From Tsuneonella sp. CC-YZS046 (GTDB lineage: Bacteria > Pseudomonadota > Alphaproteobacteria > Sphingomonadales > Sphingomonadaceae), in the NCBI RefSeq assembly GCF_035581365.1, contig NZ_CP141590.1, positions 1,426,001 to 1,490,000 on the forward strand: 64,000 bases of DNA, read 5' to 3'. A program made the translations under genes and the position numbers. Positions 48,905-51,888 of this stretch are shown one piece after another. Position 1 is the stretch's first letter; each line of letters begins with the position of its first letter. The notes under the pieces were generated by a model. The model saw only the letters and a program-made list of their open reading frames with translations, was not told where the DNA came from and did not search any database.

Positions 48905-49285
48905 TCAGCCCTCCTGGCCGGCGCTCTGATCGCGCCGTTCGGCGATGCGCGCGCGTTTACCTGTGCGGCCGCGCAGGTAATAGAGCTTGGCCCGCCGCAC
49001 GACACCGCGACGGACGAGGGTAATGCTGTCGATATTCGGGGAATAGAGCGGGAACACGCGTTCCACGCCTTCGCCGAAGCTGATCTTGCGGACAGTGAAG
49101 TTGCTGCCAAGGCCGCGATTGGAGCGGGCGATGCAGACGCCTTCGAAATTCTGGACGCGGGTGCGTTCGCCTTCAACGACGCGCACGCCGACACGGACGG
49201 TATCGCCCGGGCGGAAATCGGGGATGTCCTTCCCCTGAACGAATTGCTCGATCGCCTCGGCTTCGAGCTTCTGGATGAGGTTCAT
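48905..49285 (-). CDS. rplS: Ribosomal protein L19
   Basis: Large-subunit protein at the 30S-50S interface. 126 residues: [63 protein letters not shown] and [15 protein letters not shown] are diagnostic. ATG at 49285; the upstream open frame has no resemblance. Last gene of the conserved rpsP-rimM-trmD-rplS order. Confidence 0.97.
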
Positions 49286-49298
49286 GTCCTCATATCCT

Positions 49299-50030
49299 TC
49301 ACTTTTCGCGCCGCGCGCCAGAGGCAGGTCGGTCCCGAGCGCCCCTGTGACGCTCCCAAAGGTCCGGCCTGCGTAACCGTGTGTCTTCTTCCGCCCGGAG
49401 TTTCCTCCATGCGGCGATTTTCGCATGATCCCCCGATCGCAGCACTTCAGGGATCGTGCGCCCTTCCCAATCAACTGGTCGGGTATAATGCGGATATTCG
49501 AGCAAGCCTTCCTCGAAGGACTCTTCATGTCCGCTTTCGGTCGCGCCCATTACGCCGGGAAGCAGGCGAATGCAAGCGTCGAGCACCATCAGCGCGGCCG
49601 GCTCTCCGCCCGACAGCACGATATCGCCGACGGAAACCTGCTCGACCGCGCGCCCCTCGAAGATGCGTTCGTCGAAACCTTCGAATCGGCCGCACAGAAT
49701 CGTCACTCCGGGACCGCCAGCCAGCTCGCGAATCCGCTCCTGCGTGATCGGCTTGCCGCGCGGCGTCATCGCCAGCACCGGGCAATCAGGATGGAGCGCA
49801 AGGGCATGGTCGATCGCCCGGCCCAGCACATCGACCTTCAGCACCATGCCGGCGCCGCCGCCGGCCGGCGTGTCGTCCACCGTGCGATGCTTGTCCGCCG
49901 CGAAATCGCGAAGCTGGACCGTTTCGAGCGACCACGCGCCTTCTTCCCGCGCCCGCCCGGCGAGCGAAACGCCCAGCGGACCGGGGAACATCTCCGGATA
50001 GAGCGTGATGATGGTGGCGGCGAAGGTCAT
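49299..50030 (-). CDS. trmD: tRNA (guanine-N1-)-methyltransferase
   Basis: SAM-dependent SPOUT enzyme that makes m1G37 in tRNA and prevents frameshifting. 243 residues. [29 protein letters not shown] (family signature), the trefoil-knot sequences [12 protein letters not shown] and [15 protein letters not shown], and the C-terminal [23 protein letters not shown] at 50030 matches the usual N-terminus. Here 114 bases and a toxin-antitoxin pair lie between it and rimM, instead of the usual tight junction. Confidence 0.95.
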
Positions 50031-50144
50031 TCCGCAAAGCTTTTCACGAAACCAGACATGAAACATCGCCCCGCAGCTTTCTTGCCGCAGATGCCCGCAG
50101 GGCAGGCGCCAACAGAACCGGAGCCATAAGGAGCGGAAATTCCA

Positions 50145-50531
50145 TCATACCGTCCAGTTCTCGACCTTCAGACCCGGCACGTCGGCGAAATCTCGCCCGT
50201 TTCGAGTCACGAGCGTCAAATCCAGTTCCAGCGCCTGCACGCCAATCAACCGGTCGAAGCTCTTTCTTCGCACGCCGATCTGCTTCACAATCGATCCGTA
50301 ACGCCTGGCACATGCCAGATCGAAATCGACGATCTTCACGCTCGCAACGAAGATGTTGATTCTCTCGGCATCGCGCTTGGGATCTTGCGAACGTTTGGAG
50401 CCGACCATCAGCTCACCGACGCTGATCGACGATACCGACAAATTCTCGAAATGCTCGCCGATGCGAGCCAACAGGCGTTCGCTCCTGCCATCGAGGAAAT
50501 CGATGCAGGCGTTCGTATCGAGCAGGTACAT
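50145..50531 (-). CDS. vapC: VapC-type PIN-domain toxin
   Basis: Predicted endoribonuclease toxin of 128 residues. The PIN acidic residues are visible: Asp5 in LLDTNACID, Glu40 in SVGELMVGS, and the later acidic site in KSFDRLIGVQAL, plus the closing NGRDFADVPGLKVENW. VapC toxins cut initiator tRNA or rRNA loops. Its ATG overlaps the vapB stop codon (TGATG), so the pair is translationally coupled with the antitoxin first, the normal VapBC order. Confidence 0.9.
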   Translation of the reverse strand: MYLLDTNACIDFLDGRSERLLARIGEHFENLSVSSISVGELMVGSKRSQDPKRDAERINIFVASVKIVDFDLACARRYGSIVKQIGVRRKSFDRLIGVQALELDLTLVTRNGRDFADVPGLKVENWTV

Positions 50532-50803
50532 CAAGCCACCGCCGGTCGATCCGATGGACCATCCCAATCATAGTCGTCCTGCTCGATATCCCCGCGACCT
50601 TCGGACATGAAGCCGGGCGACATGCTGCCATAAAGGCTCAGAAAGACCTTCTTGGTATCGCTGTCTTTCCAGATGCTGAGACTGCCGTCAGCATGAGGCA
50701 CGATCACGACCTCATCGCCTTCGGCAATTCCAAGCGCCTTGGGCAGACGCATCGCTACCGAATTGCCCGATTTGAAGGTCTTGGTTGTCCATTCGCGAGT
50801 CAT
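50531..50803 (-). CDS. vapB: VapB-type antitoxin (AbrB/SpoVT fold)
   Basis: Antitoxin of 90 residues. The N-terminal half is a swapped-hairpin AbrB domain (TKTFKSGNSVAMRLPKALGI, EGDEVVIVPHADGSLSI), which binds operator DNA; the acidic C-terminal half (EGRGDIEQDDYDWDGPSD) is the disordered toxin-binding tail. CGGAG precedes the ATG at 50803. An inverted repeat just upstream is a likely autoregulation site. Confidence 0.88.
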   Translation of the reverse strand: MTREWTTKTFKSGNSVAMRLPKALGIAEGDEVVIVPHADGSLSIWKDSDTKKVFLSLYGSMSPGFMSEGRGDIEQDDYDWDGPSDRPAVA

Positions 50804-50813
50804 ACGTCGCTCC

Positions 50814-50834
50814 GTATATCTCGGATGTATATAC
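50814..50834. promoter_or_regulatory. Putative VapB operator palindrome
   Basis: Perfect inverted repeat GTATAT-N9-ATATAC, 11-31 bases upstream of the vapB start codon and ending at the first base of the rimM stop codon block (50834-50836). VapB/AbrB-fold antitoxins bind such repeats; this one may repress an internal promoter of the operon. Assignment is inference from position and symmetry. Confidence 0.55.
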
Positions 50835-51325
50835 TATTCGGCAAAGGCAGCGTCAATCACGAGGCCCTCGGGATCGCTCCATTCCGGCACCGCTTCCTCG
50901 CGCATCGGCACCATGAAGCGCTTGCCGTCCGGTTTCTCGATTTCGAGGACATCGCCCGCGCCGAAATTCTCGACGGCAACGCATTTGCCCAACGCCTCTC
51001 CGCTGGTGGAGATCGCCGGCAGGCCGATCAGGTCCGCGTGGTAATATTCGCCCTCCTCCAGCGGCGGAAGGGCGGAACGAGGAACCGTTAGGGCCGTGCC
51101 TCTCAGCTTCTCGGCTGCGTTTCGGTCGGTGATCTCGGCAAAGCGGGCGATCGCCCCGCCCTTGTTGTCGCTGCGCAGCTTTTTCAGCGTCAATGCGCCG
51201 TCATTGAAGCTCTTGAAGCGGGAGAGCGCATCCACGCCCTCCCCGAACAGCTTGAGCCGGACTTCGCCCGTCACGCCATGCGCGCCGGCAACGGCGGCGA
51301 TCGTGACGGGTTTGTCGCCAGCCAA
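50834..51325 (-). CDS. rimM: Ribosome maturation factor RimM
   Basis: Assists 16S rRNA 3' domain processing through S19. 163 residues: VTIAAVAGAHGVTGEVRLKLFG (N-domain signature, here in part), LPPLEEGEYYHADLIGLPA and the PRC-barrel end DVLEIEKPDGKRFMVPM. The start is taken as TTG at 51325, with GAGG nearby and only five bases from the rpsP stop; no ATG gives a complete N-domain. Confidence 0.93.
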   Translation of the reverse strand: MAGDKPVTIAAVAGAHGVTGEVRLKLFGEGVDALSRFKSFNDGALTLKKLRSDNKGGAIARFAEITDRNAAEKLRGTALTVPRSALPPLEEGEYYHADLIGLPAISTSGEALGKCVAVENFGAGDVLEIEKPDGKRFMVPMREEAVPEWSDPEGLVIDAAFAE

Positions 51326-51330
51326 GGGCC

Positions 51331-51888
51331 TCAGCCTTCGGCCTGTTCCTCGCCAGCCGCTTCGGCGGGCGCTTCCTCGGCCGGAGCTTCCTCGGCCGGA
51401 GTTTCCTCGGTAGCAGGAGCTTCCTCCGTAGCGGGGGCTTCCTCGGCAGCAGCCTGTTCAACGGGAACCTCGGCAGGAGCTTCCTCCGCAGCGACTTCCT
51501 CAGCCGGAGCGTTGGCGGCTTCCTCGGCAGCCTTGGCCGCTTCTTCCGCTTCCGCGATCTTGCTGGCGCGTTCCTCGGCACGATCCTTGGCCTTGGCGCC
51601 CGGTTCACCCTTCTTCGGGTTGTTGCGGGCGGCGCGTTCCTTCACGCCCGCGGCGTCGAGGAAGCGGGCAACGCGATCCGTCGGCTGCGCGCCGACGCCC
51701 AGCCAGTAGCGCGCGCGATCCTCATTCAGCTTCACGCGGTTTTCATCGCCCTTGGGCAGAACCGGATTGTAGGTGCCGATCTGCTCCAGATACTTGCCGT
51801 CGCGCGGGCTGCGGCTGTCGGCCACCACGATCCGGTAATAGGGACGCTTCTTCGCGCCACCGCGCGACAAACGCATTGCAATTGCCAT
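51331..51888 (-). CDS. rpsP: Ribosomal protein S16 with long Ala/Glu-rich tail
   Basis: Small-subunit assembly protein. The S16 core (about residues 1-80) is standard: [54 protein letters not shown]. At 185 residues it is more than twice the E. coli length. After a Lys/Arg-rich link comes an Ala/Glu helix ([19 protein letters not shown]) and then an imperfect repeat of the type EEAPA (about residues 128-180). Moderate tails are known in alphaproteobacterial S16; this one is long. M5 could be the true start. Confidence 0.93.
51340..51510 (-). repeat. Imperfect in-frame repeat in the rpsP tail
   Basis: Tandem, imperfect 15-24 base units (GCTTCCTCGG-like on the plus strand) encode repeated (A/T)EEAPA-type peptides. 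Such a tract may change length by slippage while staying in frame. Confidence 0.7.

Follow-up and report, generated by a model that had tools for sequence, protein, structure and literature searches.

The closest described systems to the one analysed here are the enterobacterial VapBC modules of Shigella, Salmonella and the F plasmid, which belong to the tRNA(fMet) endonuclease family. The VapBC pair of Tsuneonella sp. CC-YZS046 shares with them a PIN fold with four acidic residues, an antitoxin of the AbrB/MazE type and a vapB gene that lies upstream of, and overlaps, vapC. The predicted structure of its VapC matches 3tnd, 5ecd, 6ifc and 9h6a at a TM of about 0.9, with a sequence identity to the enterobacterial proteins of about 30% and scores below the NCBIfam cut-offs. 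A further likeness, by protein only, is to VapBC2 of Rickettsia felis (3zvk), in which an AbrB-type VapB and a PIN VapC are bound to their own promoter DNA (VapC match TM 0.84-0.88). Unlike the enterobacterial modules, however, the vapBC genes described below are placed inside a core ribosomal operon, in the slot between rimM and trmD, with promoter-like sequence overlapping the upstream gene.

Chromosomal toxin-antitoxin (TA) modules are known from between core genes of E. coli and Salmonella, namely ccd in folA-apaH and parDE in relA-mazG (PMC7167474). These resemble the present case in that the module occupies a plastic intergenic region between conserved genes in which other elements are also found (PMC7167474). 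They differ from it in that the slot vapBC is a single TA lineage restricted to a single slot in 37 genera of one family, and shows an operator fused to the upstream stop codon and a stop-start overlap with the next gene. How chromosomal TA systems move between hosts, and by what mechanism they integrate, has been stated to be unelucidated (PMC7167474). No paper combining trmD, rimM and vapBC was found in the open-access collection searched, and the titles and abstracts of work on ribosomal operons and on Sphingomonas TA systems gave no obvious precedent.

Results

A vapBC module inside the rpsP-rimM-trmD-rplS operon

The window, as we call the whole 64-kb stretch of DNA that was analysed, carries the gene order ffh-rpsP-rimM-vapB-vapC-trmD-rplS, all on the minus strand, as determined from open reading frames (ORFs) and from Pfam and NCBIfam searches. 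This confirmed the sequence-only reading that had placed vapB and vapC co-directionally between rimM and trmD, and its coordinates were correct. The features, all on the minus strand, are as follows.

51331-51888, minus strand: rpsP (ribosomal protein S16), the operon's first gene after ffh (ORF and Pfam)
50834-51325, minus strand: rimM (16S rRNA maturation factor), upstream neighbour of vapB
50851-50856, minus strand: -35-like box TTGACG within the Ile-Asp codons of rimM, spaced 17 nt from TATATA (sequence and comparative codon test)
50814-50834, minus strand: putative vapB operator with -10-like TATATA; half-sites GTATATAC at 50834-50827 and the degenerate AGATATAC at 50821-50814
50810-50813, minus strand: GGAG, Shine-Dalgarno-like, 5′ of vapB (sequence)
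50531-50803, minus strand: vapB antitoxin, 90 aa, with an AbrB/MazE-type DNA-binding N-terminus and a variable toxin-binding C-terminus (PF04014, E=6e-6, above the cut-off)
50145-50531, minus strand: vapC, encoding the 128-aa toxin, a PIN-domain RNase (long subtype) with catalytic D6/E41/D94/D115 (PF01850, E=3e-17)
50044-50148, minus strand: 34-aa hydrophobic ORF starting in an ATGA overlap with the vapC stop
49299-50030, minus strand: trmD (tRNA m1G37 methyltransferase), downstream neighbour of vapC (TIGR00088, 254 bits)
about 48905-49285, minus strand: rplS (ribosomal protein L19), the operon's last gene (ORF and domain search)

In the window the rimM stop is separated from the vapB start by 30 nt, vapB and vapC overlap in TGATG, and 114 nt lie between vapC and trmD. 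The 185-aa S16 encoded by rpsP continues past the S16 domain (residues 9-70) in a long C-terminal extension rich in Ala, Glu and Pro.

Properties of the VapC and VapB proteins

The predicted VapC structure (pLDDT 93.5) found its best PDB matches among the VapC proteins of Shigella, Salmonella, the F plasmid and Rickettsia, with Caulobacter VapC also matching (TM about 0.84-0.91), and the catalytic acids are retained almost throughout the VapCs found in the slot: D6 and E41 in 101/101, D94 in 100/101 and D115 in 92/101. The module has two hallmarks of a type II VapBC system, a PIN toxin with conserved acids and a small DNA-binding antitoxin whose gene overlaps that of the toxin. Against the tRNA(fMet)-specific VapC models NF047863 and NF010285 the window VapC scored 98 and 65 bits, below the curated equivalog/subfamily cut-offs of 140 and 143; membership of that group was therefore not assigned, and we infer, rather than assign, its RNA target. 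An annotation as anti-phage defence was rejected because none of the PADLOC families matched VapB or VapC. Between pairs in which VapC is more than 72% identical the median dN/dS was 0.09 (0.03-0.24), which at the sequence level indicates strong purifying selection on VapC.

The lineage is confined to one slot in Sphingomonadaceae

The distribution of the module was determined by searching 401 whole Sphingomonadaceae genomes with the window VapC, followed by retrieval, which left out about forty weaker family matches, and a profile search. With membership set at a score of more than 100 bits in a search with a slot-VapC profile, which is biased towards slot members as it was made from them, slot-type VapC was present in 101/401 genomes and 37/91 genera, leaving roughly three quarters of the genomes without slot vapBC. 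All 101 high-scoring VapCs have VapB alongside, are next to rimM, trmD or both, and share one orientation, none of the 101 loci having vapBC on the opposite strand; at three of them rimM alone was seen, trmD not appearing within the stretch covered. Eight other retrieved family VapCs score 34-89 bits and sit elsewhere.

A conserved peptide pattern, searched for in 84,980 species without regard to position, gave 296 loci; among the best 80 of these, trmD was downstream in every case and rimM was also within reach in 55. The hosts of the best 80 were Sphingomonas, Sphingobium, Novosphingobium, Sphingopyxis, Blastomonas, Sphingorhabdus, Erythrobacter and others. By comparison, 38 distant VapC relatives from outside the family, in the wider order and class, included none near rimM or trmD and none with the operator described below. 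A genome of the window's own genus (G001), 67% complete, gave no TrmD match and hence no reading of the nearest empty or occupied site.

Every VapC match in plasmid and phage sequences was below 60% identity, and the best plasmid match, an 880-kb Sphingomonas parapaucimobilis record, itself carries the rimM-trmD slot operon. A plasmid or phage reservoir for slot vapBC was rejected, none having been found in these searches. The record labelled plasmid has an ffh-rpsP-rimM-rplS operon with vapBC (L349; NZ_CP155749.1, 760952-768320).

The suggestion that the module could simply be a recent neutral insertion did not survive these comparisons, as the same module occupies the same slot in 37 genera and its VapC is under strong purifying selection.

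The rimM-trmD slot is hypervariable in Sphingomonadaceae

It had been assumed in the sequence-only reading that rimM and trmD are usually adjacent. A spacing comparison showed that this holds for other Alphaproteobacteria, where the gap is at most 150 nt in 88/103 genomes (about one genome per family, with rimM and trmD on one contig and strand), but not for Sphingomonadaceae, where it is so in only 22/115. Because close spacing is rare there compared with other Alphaproteobacteria, the region between rimM and trmD can be regarded as a hypervariable slot in this family. The gene pair vapBC is its most frequent occupant and always lies on the operon strand; next comes an FAD/NAD(P) oxidoreductase, which is on the opposite strand in 27/27 called cases, and amidohydrolases, serine hydrolases, LysR regulators, methyltransferases and others also occur. 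Unrelated cargos reach about 5 kb (Sphingomonadaceae loci L036-L149). An opposite-strand FAD/NAD(P) oxidoreductase in the slot would break up the ribosomal operon. In the family members G025, G034, G080, G112, G114 and G122 a long distance, or a change of contig or strand, separates rimM from trmD, and the operon appears broken.

A conserved putative operator with promoter-like elements extending into rimM

The signature of the putative operator 5′ of vapB is GTATATAC-N5-GTATATAC followed by GGAG. An exact search of 121 genomes found 22 sites, all 22 of them upstream of a slot vapB by coordinates, and the reversed control pattern had no site in the same 121 genomes. In the window the second half-site reads AGATATAC, and the window operator is therefore degenerate. 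In 53 genomes, including the window, the operator is fused to the end of rimM as TAG-TATATAC, such that its first G is the G of the rimM TAG stop codon.

A TTGAC box 17 nt before TATATA, within rimM codons, was present in 35 of the 53 genomes with an operator abutting rimM, compared with 3/85 rimM genes without vapBC and 2/28 rimM genes with a displaced operator at the same spacing. The NTN codon that precedes GAN ends in T in 42/51 abutting cases versus 7/47 others, the background for T-ending Ile/Val codons elsewhere in rimM being 8-14%. A related codon test on the last 12 rimM codons gave a Fisher p=9e-11, a value to be read with the relatedness, and hence non-independence, of the genomes in mind. 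Where the operator is displaced, the non-coding DNA 13-17 nt upstream of it often holds a TTGAC-like box. A generic consensus promoter scan of the window gave no site at vapB; the scan misses TATATA because it requires T as the last -10 base, which TATATA lacks. Taken together, the comparison of genomes provides good evidence for a putative promoter whose -35 element overlaps rimM. Autoregulation, as is usual for type II VapBC systems, would be in keeping with the conserved putative operator and the -35/-10-like elements, the second half-site of the window being degenerate.

The junction with trmD

In 53 genomes the vapC stop and the trmD start share four bases (NTGA). In other genomes vapC and trmD are separated by a third small gene, often with four-base overlaps with both (loci L099, L098, L094, L100, L108 and others). 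Its products are mostly of 92-118 aa with several predicted transmembrane segments; an alternative type of 116-118 aa lacks a Pfam match and has few predicted transmembrane segments or none. The 34-aa ORF of the window is a probable remnant of this gene, judged by its intact counterparts. Given the 114-nt vapC-trmD gap and the degenerate half-site, translational coupling to trmD is likely to be weaker in the window than in its relatives.

The earlier proposal that the TA promoter may drive trmD-rplS gained comparative backing from both ends of the module: the operator and -10-like sequence are fused to the rimM stop with a -35-like box in rimM codons, and vapBC is co-directional with the operon in 101/101 loci, with the NTGA overlap with trmD in 53 genomes.

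Toxin alleles are exchanged within the slot

VapC distances hardly follow those of TrmD (Spearman 0.19, against 0.67 for RimM and TrmD), and among the 50 pairs in which TrmD identity is 92% or more, VapC identity is below 60% in 32. Such swapped pairs were found in six genera (g2, g20, g30, g41, g62 and g83). In pairs such as G211/G316 the nucleotide sequences are mostly 80-100% identical from rimM through the operator into the 5′ part of vapB; over the remainder of vapB and over vapC identity is about 40-70%, and at the vapC stop and in trmD it is again about 87-100%. The C-terminal half of VapB follows VapC (0.45) and the N-terminal half follows TrmD (0.38). In some swapped pairs the N-terminal half of VapB was replaced too, and the breakpoint therefore varies. 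The nearest VapC came from the same genus in only 35/80 genomes, compared with 72/80 for the nearest TrmD. Simple vertical inheritance of the whole of vapBC was rejected on the incongruence of TrmD and VapC and the sharp drops in identity.

The weak tracking of TrmD by VapC would also be expected had vapBC been inserted repeatedly and independently into the same site from a mobile pool. We consider this improbable, since no pool was found, plasmid and phage matches being below 60% identity and the closest plasmid match being the slot itself, and since in many close pairs the host lineage keeps its operator and the 5′ half of vapB while the rest changes, for which exchange in place is the better fit.

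On a RimM/TrmD tree of 162 genomes the presence or absence of vapBC changes at least 26 times; with three quarters of the family genomes lacking it, vapBC is therefore not needed by trmD. This turnover, together with the many unrelated cargos described above, those on the opposite strand included, is what would be seen if the slot were a permissive insertion hotspot in which vapBC is one cargo of many, kept by addiction alone and having no regulatory role for trmD-rplS. Of the alternatives this is the most serious, but it seems unlikely: vapBC is always co-directional, this VapBC family and its operator were found nowhere else in the searches, and the rimM codon bias for the -35-like box occurs only where the operator abuts rimM.

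A different connection would be one with translation, in which VapC cleaves a tRNA dependent on TrmD or RimM and the location has been functionally selected. VapC does resemble the tRNA(fMet)-cleaving VapCs in sequence and fold, and its neighbours are genes for tRNA and ribosome maturation. However, VapC alleles only about 40% identical substitute for each other at one site and most family members have no vapBC. We regard this as the least probable of the explanations weighed, slightly below repeated insertion, and any link between the RNA target of VapC and tRNA modification by TrmD is speculation.

Discussion

The explanation that we favour, with reasonable though far from complete confidence, is that the window carries an active type II VapBC system of a Sphingomonadaceae lineage that occurs only in the rimM-trmD slot, where it would act as an autoregulated internal promoter of trmD-rplS and be exchanged allelically. 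Judged by genome comparison, vapBC has probably been long resident in the slot and probably supplies an internal promoter for trmD-rplS.

In such a scheme VapB, with VapC, would repress a promoter with its -35 element in rimM and its -10 element in the operator. Transcripts from the vapB promoter, and read-through from rpsP, would continue via vapBC into trmD-rplS, making the TA locus their internal, autoregulated promoter. VapC, once free, would halt translation by cleaving a tRNA, which on grounds of homology may be the initiator tRNA; addiction and linkage to the essential trmD may hold the module in place. Homologous recombination would then use the conserved flanks, with trmD at one end and rimM, the operator and the 5′ half of vapB at the other, to exchange the toxin together with the toxin-binding half of the antitoxin. 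The broader proposition is that, family-wide, a TA locus has been turned into the autoregulated internal promoter of the essential trmD-rplS genes, its polymorphic toxin and toxin-binding half being exchanged between genera by way of the conserved operon flanks and its promoter and repressor half remaining with the host; this we put forward tentatively, as somewhat short of an even chance.

How chromosomal TA systems enter, move and are retained, and whether they benefit their hosts, are open questions in the field. Here one TA lineage can be followed at one and the same site through dozens of genera, and close relatives show occupied sites, empty sites and swapped alleles, so that insertion, retention, allele exchange and any effect on essential translation genes become directly testable at the slot. 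The locus may thus offer an unusually testable example of a toxin locus joining the core machinery of the cell, with its toxin half repeatedly swapped across the family.
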